DNA of 64,000 nt from Deltaproteobacteria bacterium (GCA_016177845.1 JACOUO010000028.1:1-64000), one strand, 5' to 3'. Shown: positions 1-7,327, numbered from the stretch's first letter. The notes: generated by a model not told the origin, from the letters alone. Made by a program: numbers and translations.

Positions 1-1000
1 GAAGTACTGTAATTCTTTGTCGTATGCGTTGACGGCGAAGTATGGCATGTAGCGCATCCCGTTCCGCCTGACTGATGAGTCACGCCTGACCATGACGGAT
101 ACTTATGGCAGGTCTCGCATGTAGTCGGGTACTTCTTGGTATTGTTCACATGCGTAGTCGGCCTCTTGCTCAAATGACAGCTTGAACAGCCCGTACTTGC
201 CGTTGTGTGCGTATATGTCCATGTCGGGTACTTGTGGCATGTCTCACACGATGTACTGTACTTATTAGTCGTGTGCGTTGTGGGCGAAATATGGCATGTG
301 GCGCATCCCGTTCCGCCTGACTGATGAGTCACGCCTGACCATGACGGATACTTATGGCAGGTCTCGCATGTGGTCGGGTACTTCTTGGTATTGTTCACAT
401 GGGTTGACGGCCTCTTGCTCAAATGACAGCTTGAACAGCCCGTACTTGCCGTTGTGTGCGTATATGTCCATGTAGGGTACTTGTGGCATGTCTCGCACGA
501 AGTACTGTAGTTATTTGTCGTATGCGTTGACGGCGAAGTATGGCATGTGGCACAGCCCGTTCCACCGGACTGATGCGTCACCCCTGACCATGACGGATAC
601 TTATGGCAGGTCTCGCATGTGGTCGGGTACTTCTTGGTGTTGTTCACATGCGTAGTCGGCCTCTTGCTTAAGTGACAGCTCGAGCAGCCGGTCGTAGCCG
701 TATGAGAGTATGTCCATGTCGGGTACTTGTGGCATGTCTCGCATGATGTACTGTAGTTATTTGTCGTATGCGTTGACGGCGAAGTATGGCATGTAGCGCA
801 TCCCGTGCCGCCTGACTGATGAGTCACGCCTGACCATGACGGATACTTATGGCAGGTCTCGCATGTAGTCGGGTATTTTTTAGTATTGTTCACATGCGTT
901 GACGGCCTCTTGCTCAAATGACAGCTTGAGCATCCCGTACTTGCCGTTGTGTGCGTGGATGTCCATGTGGGGTACTTATGGCACGACTCGCAGTTTGTGC
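1..1000 (-). repeat. Coding tandem repeat, 249-bp (83-residue) units with four haems each
   Basis: Four near-identical units run from the left edge to about 993. Equivalent codons recur at about 0, 249, 498, 744 and 993, giving periods of 249, 249, 246 and 249 bp. All units are in frame with the cytochrome on the minus strand, and differences between units are mostly single-base. Each unit encodes four CXXCH motifs spaced by 18, 16, 14 and 15 residues. The high nucleotide identity implies recent duplication and a likely variable copy number. The array continues past the window edge, so its true length cannot be given. Confidence 0.92.
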
Positions 1001-3488
1001 TGTAGCCCTTGGACGAATGCGCTGAAGGAGAACTATGGCATGTAGCGCAGCCTGTTCCGCCTGACTGATGCGTCACACCTGACCATGACGGATACTTATG
1101 GCAGTTTTCGCATGTGGTAGAATATTTTTTGGTATCGTTCACATGCGTAGTCGGCCTCTTAGCCAGATGGCAGCTTGAGCAATTTGATGTAGAGGTGTGC
1201 TTGTTTGAGGCCCATGAAGATGTATTATGGCAGTTCTCGCAGGTGGTCGTATACTGCGATGGGTTGCTTGAGTGCGAAGACGGCCTGTTCTTCATGTGGC
1301 ATGTTGAACAGCCGGTACCCGGATGGTTGAACCTCCATGTCGCAAATGAACCTGTATGGCAATTGCCGCACACACTGCTGTAGCTGCCCGATGAATGATT
1401 GGGAGCTGAAGCGTATGTAACCTGATGGCAGTTGTAGCATACGGTAGATGTATTCCTGAACATCTTGTTCTTATGGCATTCGGCGCACTCTGCAATACGG
1501 TGCTTACCCTCAAGCTGATAGCCTGTATTGCTGCCATGATTAAAGAGAGTGTTCCAGGAATTCTGGTTATGGCACTGGGCGCAGTCCACAGTGCCGAACT
1601 GGTTCATGTGCGGGTCGCTGTGGCACTGGTTGCAATAGCGGTTTATCTTTTCGTATGTGCCCTTTGTCTTATGGCAGGTCTGGCACAGGACATCATTGTG
1701 CACGCCCTTAAGCTCGTAGCCTGTCTTTCTCTTGTGGTCAAACTTCCTCGGCTGCCAGTCAAACTGCGTATGGCAGGCATTGCACTCTTCCTTGAACTTG
1801 CCCTTATGCACATCCTTATGGCAGTCGGCGCACTTCTGCGCGTTTGTCTTATAAGTCTTATTCTTGTGGCACTTATCGCACTTGGTGTCCCTGTGCCTTC
1901 CTACAAGCGGGAACTTGGTCTGCTGGTTATGGTTGAGCGTGCTCTTTTTCCAGTCAAAGGCCGTGTGGCATTTTGAACAGAGGTTGCCAAGCTCCTTTTT
2001 GTGCGTGTCGTCCTTCTCATGGCAATTGAAGCAGGCCGTAGGCACAGGCTTGTATTTGCCGTTGGCGTGGCACTTATCGCAAACCGTCTTTAAGTGCTTG
2101 CCTTCAAGTTTATACGAACTGTACTCAGCCGCGTTATGGTTAAAGAGCGTCTTCTTCCAGTCATTGGTCACATGGCAGGTCTCACAGGTCTTTGCCCCGA
2201 ACTGCTTCTTATGGACATCCTTGTGGCAGTCAGCGCAGAGCTTATAATTAAGCGGCTTATAGCGGCCCTGCTCATGGCATTTCCTGCACTCCACCTTAAG
2301 GTGCTTGCCGTCAAGCCTGTAGCCTTTATAATCAGAGGCGTTATGGTCAAACGATGTCGTCTCCCACGCCTTTGTACTGTGGCATGACTCGCATGTCCTG
2401 TCCGCGAACTGCTTTTTGTGCGGGTCATTATGGCAATCTATGCACGCCTTGTATTTAAGCGGCTTATACTGCCCTTTTACATGGCATTTGCTGCAGTCCA
2501 CCTTGATGTGCTTGCCGTCAAGCTTATACCCCTTGTACTCAGGCGAGTTATGGTCGAACGATGTCGCCTGCCAGCCTTTTGTCGAATGGCATGATTCGCA
2601 GGTCTTGCCCGGGAACTGGTTCTTGTGCGGGTTCTTATGGCAGTCAAAGCAAGCCTTATAATTAAGAGGCTTGTACCGGCCCTGCACATGGCATTTATCG
2701 CAGGCTACCTTGGTATGCTTGCCGTCCAGCTTATACCCTTTATACTCGGGTGATGCGTGGTCAAAGGCATTGGTCTTCCAGCCCGACTCGGTATGGCAAG
2801 CCTCGCACTTCTTATCGGCGAACTGCTTCTTATGCGGGTCCTTATGGCAGTCTATGCAGGCCTTAAAGCTTATGGGCTTGTACTTGCCCCTCTCATGGCA
2901 CTTCTCGCATTTCACCTCATTATGCTTTACCTTGAGCACATAGGAAGAATTGATGTTGTGATTGAACTTCTTTACATCTTTCCAGCCTGTGATGTTGTGG
3001 CAGGCATCGCACTTCTTATCGCCGAACTGCTTCTTATGCGTATCCTGATGGCAGGAGAGGCACTCCTTGGACGCGCCTGTAAATATGCCTTCCTTCTTAT
3101 GGCATTTTATGCAGGCTACCTTAGCGTGCTTGTCCCTGAGTTGATAATCGGTCCTGTCGTGGTCAAACTTATCCTTATCTATGATTATCATCTTGTAGCT
3201 TCTGCCCTTGTGGTCGCCGTGGCATTTTACGCACGCATCCGTATATTTGGCATGAAGCCCCTGCTTGTTCTTTATCTTTTCCGCAAGCTTGTCATGGCAG
3301 TCGAGGCAAAGGCTGTCGGGTACGCCTTTACCAAGACTGTGGCATTTTACGCAGTTTTTTATACCCTCATATTTGGCATGGGATTTAGCGAGATCGCCAG
3401 GACTTATGAGTGAATCAAATCCGTCCTGTGCCAGCGCAATCCCTGAGAACATAAACAGGATAGAGAAAAGCAGCAGTATTTTTTTCAT
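1..3488 (-). CDS. Giant periplasmic multiheme c-type cytochrome (partial, C-terminus beyond left edge)
   Basis: The frame is open from an ATG at 3488-3486 to the left edge without a stop, 1162 codons, so the protein is longer than this. A GAGGTGAT ribosome site precedes the ATG. Residues 1-20 form a signal peptide (MKKILLLFSILFMFSGIALA, then QDG), so it is exported. By eye I count 51 CXXCH haem-binding motifs. Residues about 170-600 are Lys-rich 69-residue repeats with three haems each. From about residue 830 the protein is Ser/Thr-rich and consists of 83-residue repeats with four haems each (CSSCH, CETCH, CATCH, CETCH). Family knowledge: such proteins carry electrons across the periplasm or to extracellular acceptors. 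The membrane b-type cytochrome gene lies 100 bp upstream on the same strand and is the likely quinol-side partner. The acceptor and terminal localisation are unknown. No CX14-15CH-type variant haem site was noticed. Confidence 0.93.
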   Translation of the reverse strand, partial: MKKILLLFSILFMFSGIALAQDGFDSLISPGDLAKSHAKYEGIKNCVKCHSLGKGVPDSLCLDCHDKLAEKIKNKQGLHAKYTDACVKCHGDHKGRSYKMIIIDKDKFDHDRTDYQLRDKHAKVACIKCHKKEGIFTGASKECLSCHQDTHKKQFGDKKCDACHNITGWKDVKKFNHNINSSYVLKVKHNEVKCEKCHERGKYKPISFKACIDCHKDPHKKQFADKKCEACHTESGWKTNAFDHASPEYKGYKLDGKHTKVACDKCHVQGRYKPLNYKACFDCHKNPHKNQFPGKTCESCHSTKGWQATSFDHNSPEYKGYKLDGKHIKVDCSKCHVKGQYKPLKYKACIDCHNDPHKKQFADRTCESCHSTKAWETTSFDHNASDYKGYRLDGKHLKVECRKCHEQGRYKPLNYKLCADCHKDVHKKQFGAKTCETCHVTNDWKKTLFNHNAAEYSSYKLEGKHLKTVCDKCHANGKYKPVPTACFNCHEKDDTHKKELGNLCSKCHTAFDWKKSTLNHNQQTKFPLVGRHRDTKCDKCHKNKTYKTNAQKCADCHKDVHKGKFKEECNACHTQFDWQPRKFDHKRKTGYELKGVHNDVLCQTCHKTKGTYEKINRYCNQCHSDPHMNQFGTVDCAQCHNQNSWNTLFNHGSNTGYQLEGKHRIAECAECHKNKMFRNTSTVCYNCHQVTYASAPNHSSGSYSSVCGNCHTGSFATWRFNHPGTGCSTCHMKNRPSSHSSNPSQYTTTCENCHNTSSWASNKHTSTSNCSSCHLAKRPTTHVNDTKKYSTTCENCHKYPSWSGVTHQSGGTGCATCHSSPSAHSSKGYSTNCESCHKYPTWTSTHTTASTGCSSCHLSKRPSTHVNNTKKYPTTCETCHKYPSWSGVTHQSGGTGCATCHTSPSTHTTNNYSTSCETCHKYPTWTYSHTATTGCSSCHLSKRPTTHVNNTKKYPTTCETCHKYPSWSGVTHQSGGTGCATCHTSPSTHTTNNYSTSCETCHKYPTWTYTHTTASTGCSSCHLSKRPSTHVNNTKKYPTTCETCHKYPSWSGVTHQSGGTGCATCHISPTTHTTNKYSTSCETCHKYPTWTYTHTTASTGCSSCHLSKRPTTHVNNTKKYPTTCETCHKYPSWSGVTHQSGGTGCATCHTSPSTHTTKNYST

Positions 3489-3588: not shown

Positions 3589-4566
3589 CTATATACTGAC
3601 CCTGAAGACATAGTAAACGATAATATGCAAAAACATTATGAGGAACATGACTATCGCAAGCGGCACATGGAGCACATGCCAGTAATGAAGGAGCTTATGC
3701 GATGTCGTTAGAAAGTTCTTGCGCCTTATAAGAGCGGCCTTTCTCTTCAGGAGCGTGATATGCTCATCCCGTATCCTTCTGGAGAGCTGGTAGCGGGTCT
3801 TGAGTATCCTCCTGAGCTTCCAGACCTTGAACCTGTTGATGATGTCGGTCCACATCATCAAACCAAGCGCCTTGAGCGGATGGAGGTCTTTTGACTTTTC
3901 ATCCGCTGTAGTTATTTCAGTTAGGAAATGCGTAATATTCGTATTATTGATAAACCTGCCCAGATCGTTATTAAGCCTCTCGACTATCCCGTCTATCTCC
4001 TTAACCCCAAGCTCCGCGCCGGTGATAGTCCTCGGTATCTGCACATAGATATACCTGCCAAGGATGCCGAAAACCATCGTTGTTATCATGCACCAGAAGC
4101 TTGTCGCTATAAGGCCGTGGAACTTGAAAGTCGTATGGAGGGTTACAAGGAGAGGGCCCATGACACCTAAGAACATATGAGCTGAGAGCCAGTGGCGCAT
4201 TGAGCCGAAACCGCTGAAAAAAGAGACCCTTTTCCTTACGCTGTAGAGCATCATGAATACCATCATGAATGAGCCGAGCCAGCCGAGATCATGCCAGATG
4301 CCCTTGCTGGGCTCGTATATGATGGGGTATGCCTTGAGATAGCCGTAGCTGTGCGCTAAACTAAGTATGCTATACGCTGGCAGGATATCCTGAGTGAAGC
4401 TTTCATATAGCCCTATGCAGACGATGACGAGCGCCGAGATACCTAAAAACCATTCAAACTTAAAATTGCTCTTTACTATGTTTGGTTTTACGGCTTCCTG
4501 AACCTTGAATTCAGCGGCAGCAACTGTTCCCTGTTCCGCCTGAATCGCTACATTCAATTCTGTCAT
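3589..4566 (-). CDS. Membrane b-type cytochrome, probable quinol partner of the multiheme cytochrome
   Basis: This 325-residue protein has about five hydrophobic helices (roughly 38-56, 95-110, 124-146, 151-172 and 297-321). Possible haem-b ligands sit in or beside them: His125, His130, His144 and His150 near helices 3-4, and His290, His294, His297, His300 and His314 around the last helix. A charged cytoplasmic-looking stretch of about 120 residues (175-296) separates helices 4 and 5. The pattern resembles ferric-reductase or cytochrome b561-type haem proteins, but I cannot assign a named family. The start is supported by GGAGGAATAGGTCTG before the ATG. The giant cytochrome c gene follows on the same strand, so the pair probably forms one transcript and one electron path from menaquinol to periplasmic haems. 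That function is inference from context. Confidence 0.75.
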   Translation of the reverse strand: MTELNVAIQAEQGTVAAAEFKVQEAVKPNIVKSNFKFEWFLGISALVIVCIGLYESFTQDILPAYSILSLAHSYGYLKAYPIIYEPSKGIWHDLGWLGSFMMVFMMLYSVRKRVSFFSGFGSMRHWLSAHMFLGVMGPLLVTLHTTFKFHGLIATSFWCMITTMVFGILGRYIYVQIPRTITGAELGVKEIDGIVERLNNDLGRFINNTNITHFLTEITTADEKSKDLHPLKALGLMMWTDIINRFKVWKLRRILKTRYQLSRRIRDEHITLLKRKAALIRRKNFLTTSHKLLHYWHVLHVPLAIVMFLIMFLHIIVYYVFRVSI

Positions 4567-4836: not shown

Positions 4837-7209
4837 TCAGTTTTGATTGATATCAGTGATTACGCCTTTTATTACGCCAAGGAGGTCCGGTATCTCATAG
4901 GGCTTCTGCAAAAAACGAAAACCCTTTTCTTTAATAAACGGCCACTGGGATTCTATATCCATGTACCCGCTTGCGAATACAACCTTAAGCTCCGGCTTTA
5001 TGGCAAGCAGCTCTTCCATAAGCTCTACCCCGCTATAATCCTTCAGTACAATATCTGAAAATACGAGGTCAAACATGCCACCTTCCCGTTCAAAGATATC
5101 CTTTGCCTCTTTTGCGCTGCCCGCCTCAAAGACATTATATCCGTTCTTCATCAGCACGATTGCTACACTTCTCCTCAGGAGTTTTTCATCCTCGATCAGA
5201 AGTATCCTCTCTTTATCGCCGCGTATATTGGCGGACGGCAAAACTTTTCCGTAAGGCCTCGGCTTTATGGCCTCGCCCGTTGAAGGCAGATAGACGATAA
5301 AAGTGGTGCCCTGCCCAGGCTCGCTTACATAAGTTATCTCACCCTTATGTTCCTTGACTATATTCTGAACAACCGGCAGGCCAAGCCCTATGTTGACACC
5401 TGCCTCTTTAGAAGTGAAAAAAGGCTCGAAAAGGCGGCTGCAGGTCTCCTTGTCCATTCCTGTACCGTTGTCTTCAATAATCAGCCTTACGAATTTTCCC
5501 TTGAGCCCTGATTCATTAAAAGGGTCTTTATCGAATTCCACATTTGAAGTCGTTATACTTATCTCACCGCCTTCAGGCAAGGCATCCGTTGAATTCAGCA
5601 CAAGGTTGATTATCAGGTGCTCGATATTTCCCCGGTCTGCCATGACAGACCGGATATCGGGCGCAAACGATGTCTTTATCGTAATATTTTCCGCTATTAT
5701 GTTGTTAAGCACCTTCAATAGGTCGCCTGCTGCTTCATTTATGTCAAGAGGGGCAAGCCTTGTTGGCTGGTTCCTGCTGAAGATAAGCAACTGACGGGTG
5801 AGATTATTGGCACGGGCAACAGAGGCCTTTATCTGTTCAAAATATTTCTTCAACGCGCCTGAATAATTGGGCTCTTTTTCAGCGAGATTGCTCAGTGACT
5901 TTATCGTAGTCATTATATTGTTGAAATCATGCGCAACACCTCCGGCAAGCTTTCCGACAATCTCATTTTTCTGTGTTTGAAAAAGGTGCGCCTGCATTAA
6001 ATCCTTTTCACCCTCAAGCCGCTTTCTTTCAAGGATATCAGCATTGAGGATCTCGTTGGCGAGCACAAGTTCCGCTGTGCGCGCATGCACCCTTTCCTCC
6101 AGTTCATTCTGCGCCTTTCTCAGGTCTTCCTCTATCTTCTTCCTCTCTGATATCTCATCAAGCAGGTCTTTGTTAAGGTCATTTTCTTTTACGCGGCTGT
6201 ACGCAAGCGTGCAGGCAATGGCAAAAAAGAGAAGGCTTATAAGACTGCCTGCCGCAAGTACAATTACAGGTTTTTTATGCTCTGCAATCTCTGATTTGAA
6301 TGTTGATAAGGGAGTGAAATAAAGGGCCCATACCTTTCCGTTAAAGTAAACATTGATCTTTGAAGAACAAACAGCGCCAAGGCCGCCTCCGGCATAGATA
6401 CCATCGCTGTCATACATCAGCTTATCCCTTTTTAATTCCGTTCCGTCGTAAATTTCAAAATCCATATCAGGCAGGTCCGTGCCAAAAATGCCTTGCATAA
6501 GGTCGTTCATGCGGAAAGGGCTGTAAACAAAACCATCCAGGGCTGCGCGCCTCTCCTGAATGGTATTTATGGGCATATCTTTCCTGTAAATGGGATAGTA
6601 CATCAGGAAGCCCATCTGAACAGCCTCATTGGTCTCCTGCACAAGTTTCACCCTTCGGGTGATAACGACTGAATTCGTGTCCCTCGCCGCCTCCATAGCC
6701 TCTCTGCGCACAGGCTCCGAGAACATATCGTAACCAAATGCCCTAAGATTTCTTTCTTTGAACGGTTCGAGGTAGATGATAGAGGTATAAATACTGCGCT
6801 CGCCTTCAGGCCAGACTTTATAGGCAGGAAATCCTTGAGCGCGGATTTTTTTTACATGGGCGGCTTTTTCCTCAGGCGCAACGACCTTCGAAAAACCTAT
6901 ACCCTGTATTCCGGGATAGGTCGTATCGATCCTGAGATTATCTACATAGGTCTTCCATTCCTCTCTATCCACTTCCTTTGAGGCCGCAAATAACCCTGCG
7001 GCGCCGCGCAGTACCTGTTCGTACGCCAGCATGCGCTGCTGCAGCTCAAGCTTTATTTCAGAGACGCGATGGTCGAAATGCCTGCGGGCATCTTTCTCAG
7101 AATCTATTTTAGAGTGCCTCCATAATAAAAATGTGAGCGAGAATGAAATAATGAGCGTAACCCATGCCATCATCATTGCTCTGGAGAAGGCAAAAGACCT
7201 TAATTTCAT
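4837..7209 (-). CDS. CHASE-domain hybrid sensor histidine kinase
   Basis: A membrane sensor kinase of about 790 residues. The order is a TM helix near the N-terminus, a periplasmic CHASE domain (roughly 75-270, with the YPGIQGIGFSKVV segment typical of the family), a second TM (about 325-345), a coiled coil, a HisKA dimerisation domain with the phosphoacceptor in GGVAHDFNNIMTT, a HATPase domain (N-box LVLNSTDALPEGG and a GLGLPVVQNI loop), and a C-terminal receiver with the acceptor Asp in DLVFSDIVL and Lys in LQKPY. It would autophosphorylate and pass phosphate to its own receiver. No DNA-binding output is attached, and the signal is unknown. A TTG at 7224 is an alternative start five codons upstream; neither start has a clear Shine-Dalgarno. 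The gene lies 270 bp upstream of the cytochrome pair on the same strand, so a regulatory link is possible but unproven. Confidence 0.9.
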   Translation of the reverse strand: MKLRSFAFSRAMMMAWVTLIISFSLTFLLWRHSKIDSEKDARRHFDHRVSEIKLELQQRMLAYEQVLRGAAGLFAASKEVDREEWKTYVDNLRIDTTYPGIQGIGFSKVVAPEEKAAHVKKIRAQGFPAYKVWPEGERSIYTSIIYLEPFKERNLRAFGYDMFSEPVRREAMEAARDTNSVVITRRVKLVQETNEAVQMGFLMYYPIYRKDMPINTIQERRAALDGFVYSPFRMNDLMQGIFGTDLPDMDFEIYDGTELKRDKLMYDSDGIYAGGGLGAVCSSKINVYFNGKVWALYFTPLSTFKSEIAEHKKPVIVLAAGSLISLLFFAIACTLAYSRVKENDLNKDLLDEISERKKIEEDLRKAQNELEERVHARTAELVLANEILNADILERKRLEGEKDLMQAHLFQTQKNEIVGKLAGGVAHDFNNIMTTIKSLSNLAEKEPNYSGALKKYFEQIKASVARANNLTRQLLIFSRNQPTRLAPLDINEAAGDLLKVLNNIIAENITIKTSFAPDIRSVMADRGNIEHLIINLVLNSTDALPEGGEISITTSNVEFDKDPFNESGLKGKFVRLIIEDNGTGMDKETCSRLFEPFFTSKEAGVNIGLGLPVVQNIVKEHKGEITYVSEPGQGTTFIVYLPSTGEAIKPRPYGKVLPSANIRGDKERILLIEDEKLLRRSVAIVLMKNGYNVFEAGSAKEAKDIFEREGGMFDLVFSDIVLKDYSGVELMEELLAIKPELKVVFASGYMDIESQWPFIKEKGFRFLQKPYEIPDLLGVIKGVITDINQN

Positions 7210-7327
7210 GATAGTATCAGCCAATTGTCCATAGTGGTTTTAAAAATAGCTTAATATATCAAAACAGGAATTTAAAAGTAAATAGAATAATTTAGAATCA
7301 TTACAAGTTAAAAGGAGTTAAAAAGTA

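Follow-up and report, generated by a model that had tools for sequence, protein, structure and literature searches.

The window, a stretch of 64,000 nucleotides, corresponds to contig C9 of a 3.0 Mb deltaproteobacterial genome (30 contigs) from base 1, and its left edge is the contig end. Running into this edge is the gene of a giant multihaem cytochrome c (3-3488, minus strand), preceded by the genes of a 325-residue inner-membrane protein (IMP; 3589-4566, minus strand) and, directly upstream of this IMP-cytochrome operon, of a CHASE-domain hybrid histidine kinase (4837-7224, minus strand). The cytochrome frame is open from its ATG for 1162 codons to the window edge and contains exactly 51 CXXCH motifs, compared with a mean of 0.8 and a maximum of 5 after shuffling of its residues. 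Frame length and motif count of the original prediction were both reproduced. The overall haem density amounts to one haem per 22.8 residues.

The haem sites are arranged in two types of repeats. After an initial CXXCH spacing of 15/25/40, the N-terminal part displays a repeated spacing of 17/17/35 (69 residues, three haems), and the C-terminal part a repeated spacing of 19/20/23/21 (83 residues, four haems). In blocks of 60 residues, Lys makes up about 12-22% of residues 1-600 and 3-8% beyond, with Ser and Thr together rising from ~ 10% to 32-45%, the latter in the 83-residue repeats; spacing and composition thus agree with the Lys-rich 69-residue and Ser/Thr-rich 83-residue repeats originally proposed. 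Both arrays were also detected in the DNA by Tandem Repeats Finder, with periods of 249 and 207 nt. Read from the sequence, residues 1 to ~ 21 form a signal peptide (MKKILLLFSILFMFSGIALAQ; 3426-3488, minus strand), the sole one in the protein. It is followed by the Lys-rich three-haem repeats at residues 29-492 (2013-3404, minus strand; 20 CXXCH), one extra three-haem repeat at residues 493-562 (1803-2012, minus strand), which could be assigned to either part, and the region of residues 563-1162 (3-1802, minus strand), which continues on another contig, C18. Within the latter, tandem four-haem Ser/Thr-rich units occupy residues 793-1162 (3-1112, minus strand), starting at residues 793, 876, 958, 1041 and 1124.

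The end of contig C9 falls inside this repeat array. Contig C18 opens with a frame of the same family (L011:1-1044, plus strand), which encodes 347 residues with 16 CXXCH motifs and then terminates in a stop codon. The last 131 nt of C9 are exactly those of C18 52-182; C18 1-51 shows five mismatches to the adjoining C9 bases and is identical to another repeat unit. As a direct 182-nt merge of the two contigs is doubtful, we give the haem number as a range. The direct merge would yield 65 haems in ~ 1449 residues, addition of one partial unit 69 haems in ~ 1532 residues, and whole 83-residue units, contributing four haems each, may be absent from the join. Extending the search to the left of the window, as originally proposed, therefore places the stop on C18 and brings the total to 65-69 haems or more; across the contig gap, we infer about 65-70 haems or more for the full-length protein. 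The genome holds exactly two IMP genes and two porin genes, with one set on contig C24 and the other split between C9 and C18, which leaves C9 and C18 as the only possible partners.

A contig end within near-identical repeats (92% DNA identity), together with the imperfect overlap of C9 and C18, would be in line with an assembly artefact, in which two cytochrome genes or collapsed repeats were misjoined and the giant protein does not exist. Several observations argue against this explanation, which we consider highly improbable. Besides the sole possible pairing of C9 and C18, contig C24 carries an intact paralogous operon, encoding a 351-residue IMP, a 1025-residue cytochrome with 44 CXXCH motifs and a 419-residue porin. 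Independent public assemblies contain 12 further complete operons, in which the IMP gene is followed by a single cytochrome gene (35-66 haems, 914-1576 residues) and by a porin gene of ~ 410 codons; homologues with the same two-part organization, and with them the proposal of one protein combining both kinds of repeats, are thereby well documented. Moreover, adjacent C-terminal units, identical by up to 95% in protein and 92% in DNA, differ mainly at third codon positions (e.g., 2/1/16 and 1/1/7), as expected for a protein under selection rather than for a frameshifted or junk repeat. Judging from the genomic sequences, the giant cytochrome is real, and can be attributed neither to a frameshift nor to an erroneous joining of two genes during assembly. 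IMP and porin genes lie on different contigs in at least four relatives as well (G001, G007, G025, G026), indicating that the repeat gene regularly breaks assemblies, and such giant proteins are probably undercounted for this reason.

The surroundings of the paralogous operon display further features. The kinase upstream of it is 46% identical over 387 residues to the CHASE kinase of the window; a joint duplication of kinase and operon is therefore possible, and the kinase may regulate the operon. Beside the C24 operon (L012:12384-18805) lie a 1684-residue secreted protein with SdrD_B, choice-of-anchor Q and NosD-like stretches, and a protein resembling a multicopper oxidase by eye; both are possible extracellular partners.

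The origin of the two-part structure becomes clearer upon comparison with operons of Bacteroidota, Ignavibacteriota, Calditrichota and related genomes, which hold the same gene set but two cytochrome genes. The first of these split cytochromes has 17-23 haems (exactly 20 in 32 of 40), whereas the second is Lys-poor and Ser/Thr-rich, with 10-55 haems. Profile comparison of the 20-haem family (39 sequences) with the N-terminal part of the fused proteins gives an hhalign probability of 100 (E 4e-118). The separate 20-haem cytochrome aligns end to end with residues 29-492 of the giant cytochrome, which hold exactly 20 CXXCH motifs, although the end point at residue 492 is partly set by the length of that cytochrome. 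Residues 563-1162 align with the N-terminus and the repeats of the variable Ser/Thr-rich cytochrome. For the second cytochromes, residue 563, one three-haem repeat further on, is the most frequent start of the N-terminus (24 of the aligned sequences), in a register that is softened by the repeats, with some placed at residue 498. Along the giant cytochrome, the best-matching class changes from the first to the second cytochrome at residue ~ 600. Separate second cytochromes have their own signal peptide, but the fused proteins have none at this position.

These comparisons indicate that the giant cytochrome is a fusion of two cytochromes encoded separately in other bacteria. In a tree of 75 IMPs, all fused operons fall into one 30-member clade (support 100/100, stem 1.35). 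IMP position 166 is Phe in 17 of 17 fused operons and Ser in 33 of 33 split operons, the helix-4 motif reading FGXXG in all of the former and SGXXG in all of the latter. A single fusion event would be the simplest reading, the tree being unrooted and a split in the reverse direction possible. We found no description of a fusion of these two cytochromes in the open-access literature, our coverage of which is incomplete. Related arrangements occur in other genomes: in the same lineage, L089 and L103 have only a 21-haem, 678-residue cytochrome, possibly the N-terminal part alone, and the flavoprotein FX described below, with no porin recognized. In the same order, L064, L065 and L066 have a related IMP, a 21-haem cytochrome and a second cytochrome with 19-29 haems. 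The second cytochrome of L064 also bears SPOR domains, and its neighbors are a Fer4/Pyr_redox flavoprotein and a protein with ankyrin repeats; no porin was recognized there.

The IMP is a putative di-haem b transmembrane electron carrier. It displays five family-averaged hydropathy maxima (41-57, 94-110, 127-143, 152-168 and 305-321), and two WX3HX13H motifs (W126/H130/H144 and W296/H300/H314) lie in helices 3 and 5. Among 76 relatives, 74-76 keep the His residues and 61 the first Trp; in the window, the helix-4 motif is FGXXG. The ferric reductase/NADPH oxidase membrane domain (PF01794) scores 12 bits against the IMP, below its gathering score of 28, and the HX13H geometry is common to both. 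Systems of that type likewise combine two HX13H pairs and two b haems with a cytosolic flavin partner; here, in contrast, electrons would pass to a cytochrome c chain. Three Nitrospinota MAGs (L072, L074, L075) encode an IMP 60-62% identical to that of the window with no adjacent multihaem cytochrome gene, and their contigs continue.

Across the contig gap, the 418-residue porin (L011:1048-2304, on C18) begins a few bases past the cytochrome stop. A structure model of the family, made from the homologue L094, has 22 strands (pLDDT 84) and matches TonB-receptor barrels without the plug (Z 17-21 over some 340-366 aligned residues). The two kinds of operon, fused and split, have homologous porins (profile comparison 99.8%, E 3e-30). 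Pfam and NCBIfam hold no known function for the barrel, a search of PDB sequences with the porin profile gave no useful match, and Foldseek of the model returned generic outer-membrane porins and ushers, with no cytochrome-conduit barrel among the matches listed, which does not argue against such a role. Convergent with the porin on C18 is the gene of a 433-residue flavoprotein, FX, with an N-terminal hydrophobic stretch, Fer4 and FAD/NAD(P)H (Pyr_redox) domains and two [4Fe-4S] sites. An FX homologue is found with 11 of the 12 complete fused operons and, among the split ones, with 30 of 33, 22 of these directly behind the IMP; FX is absent beside the intact C24 paralogue and beside L069, and is thus not essential to every copy of the operon. 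Distant IMP homologues on Variovorax, Methylophaga and Bradyrhizobium plasmids adjoin FAD/NAD-binding and Fer2 proteins or a fragment. FX and these plasmid contexts support, but do not prove, a ferric-reductase-like feed of a conduit by NAD(P)H. Elsewhere on C18 (L011:13241-14271), a protein resembling an outer-membrane beta-barrel is followed by a tandem pair of small, related secreted cytochromes (139 and 141 residues).

This gene set closely resembles PCC3, described by He et al. 2017 (PMC5566968) as a porin, an extracellular and a periplasmic cytochrome, and an inner-membrane protein of ~ 300 residues. There, the extracellular cytochrome has a median of 34 and up to 85 haems and is rich in Thr, Ser, Ala and Gly, and the periplasmic one has a median of 21 haems. 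The inner-membrane protein has five helices, an SGXXG motif and two WX3HX13H motifs, and the motif site in helices 3 and 5 recurs in PCC4. For Gallionellaceae (PMC10734462), the haem numbers given are 21, 24 or 27 for the periplasmic PCC3 cytochrome and 10-35 for its extracellular counterpart. PCC3 and the fused operon share a barrel porin, a ~ 21-haem-type and a Ser/Thr-rich variable cytochrome, and a five-helix IMP with WX3HX13H. They differ in that PCC3 has two cytochrome genes where the fused operon has one polypeptide matching both, in the helix-4 motif (SGXXG against FGXXG), in the barrel (~ 410 residues and 22 predicted strands here, up to 42 predicted strands in PCC3 porins), and in the flavin/Fe-S gene adjoining the fused operon, which the available part of the PCC3 description does not mention. 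The fused operon departs from PCC3 in two of its defining features, the separate cytochromes and the SGXXG motif, and is therefore a PCC3-like variant and not a PCC3 member. The split operons (L095-L146, L147) fit the PCC3 description closely, with a homologous IMP carrying SGXXG, FX, a 20-haem and a variable cytochrome, each with a signal peptide, and a porin of ~ 540 residues with ~ 150 extra N-terminal ones. Kinship to proteobacterial PCC3 is judged here from published descriptions, with sequence comparison limited to the distant plasmid IMP homologues, which lie outside PCC3 clusters.

Taken together, the locus probably encodes a PCC3-like trans-envelope conduit whose periplasmic and extracellular cytochromes have become one fused polypeptide of ~ 1450-1530 or more residues. 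Membrane-anchored FX might take electrons from NAD(P)H, or the quinol pool might supply them, alone or in addition. The IMP would carry them over the inner membrane via two b haems, for which its HX13H pairs would provide the ligands, and they would then enter the Lys-rich 20-haem part, spanning the periplasm. The cytochrome chain would pass through the plugless 22-strand barrel, with the Ser/Thr-rich four-haem repeats extending outside to meet minerals, humics or partner cells. We infer the haem loading, the periplasmic location of the N-terminal part, the passage through the barrel, the external location of the Ser/Thr-rich part and the electron source alike. A long electron wire, as originally suggested, is the best reading of a cytochrome encoded between a di-haem b IMP and an outer-membrane barrel; a linear shape is only presumed, and full-length AlphaFold2 prediction of the window cytochrome gave a pLDDT of 39 and a pTM of 0.26, a level at which we draw no structural claim. 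A search of PDB sequences with the giant cytochrome revealed nothing beyond weak similarity to tetrahaem cytochromes c3 and CctA. Against the conduit, passage of a fully haemylated C-terminal half through the barrel is left without explanation. A high Ser/Thr content is already familiar from the extracellular cytochromes of PCC3, and thus lends no support to glycosylation or flexibility of the giant cytochrome. In its Ser/Thr-rich part, haematite-binding [ST]P[ST] motifs number 6 against 5.7 expected by shuffling, and in its relatives they occur at, near or below chance; we therefore rejected them as a feature of the protein.

The giant cytochrome could instead be a wholly periplasmic charge reservoir, with the adjoining barrel an unrelated substrate porin. 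Proteins of this kind have been suggested to store electrons (PMC7399161, PMC10734462), and storage would fit the many haems, at ~ 23 residues each, as well as a barrel with no function assigned by Pfam or NCBIfam. However, in each of the 12 complete fused operons the cytochrome gene is immediately followed by that of the barrel, which is plugless and homologous to the split-operon barrels, and the C-terminal part matches a class of cytochromes for which an extracellular location is predicted in PCC3 (PMC5566968). Pure storage is therefore unlikely. On the basis of models alone, a ~ 21-haem PCC3 protein has been suggested to bridge the periplasm (PMC10734462); an extended chain of 65-70 haems would accordingly be expected to exceed the periplasm and to have to exit or fold back.

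Under the conduit reading, the direction of flow can be considered separately, with outward flow slightly favored over uptake. Electrons taken from Fe(II), minerals or cathodes could instead move inward, either to a nitrate reductase or cbb3 oxidase or, against the gradient, to NAD(P)+. PCC3 is known from Fe(II)-oxidizing bacteria (PMC5566968), and the genome contains ccoN (734 bits) and narG (1125 bits), both above cut-off. On the other hand, a RuBisCO large subunit was not found in the genome above cut-off, giving no sign of a Calvin cycle, and the NAD(P)H-type partners fit electron donation better than uptake; we regard an inward conduit as rather unlikely. The probably uncultured host may respire oxygen and nitrate, given the cbb3 oxidase and narG and the lack of genomic matches above cut-off to dsrA and RuBisCO. 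A weak narG-like match (C9:64154-64384) also lies in a 705-residue frame just right of the window.

Whether electrons cross the periplasm by diffusing carriers or over a fixed bridge is a debated question. A natural fusion fixes the 1:1 ratio, the order and the contact of both cytochromes, so that a single protein would suffice to test the bridge model. Only tentatively do we suggest a single covalent chain of ~ 70 haems that would receive electrons from NAD(P)H, by way of a flavin/Fe-S protein and a di-haem b protein of NOX-like type, and run unbroken from the inner membrane through the 22-strand barrel to the outside. If true, one molecule would form the complete wire across the envelope, and electrons would not have to hop between proteins once past the inner membrane.

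Among other known systems, the Burkholderiales conduit with 24- and 49-haem cytochromes (PMC7399161) is similar in its two large dense cytochromes before a porin and in a haem number of the larger cytochrome that varies between close relatives, but its cytochromes are not fused and its porin is described as OmbB-like. MtrCAB, MtoAB and PioAB work alike, with a cytochrome chain through an outer-membrane barrel, but employ decahaem cytochromes; the MtrA/DmsE-type family was rejected (TIGR03508, 36.9 bits against a cut-off of 192.2). The OetABI conduit, considered as a match, is a different system. The original statement that the haem count lies far above most is true, but a record is ruled out by published proteins with 85 haems (Agromonas oligotrophica PCC3; PMC5566968) and 86 haems (Desulfuromonas acetexigens; PMC12133095). 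These are likewise single-chain arrays, and the descriptions do not present them as fusions of periplasmic and extracellular PCC3 cytochromes. Among the split operons, that of Emticicia oligotrophica DSM 17448 (L147) provides a cultured isolate with a two-gene conduit, located on plasmid pEMTOL02 beside a CcsA-type cytochrome c biogenesis gene; the plasmid location is a sign of mobility.
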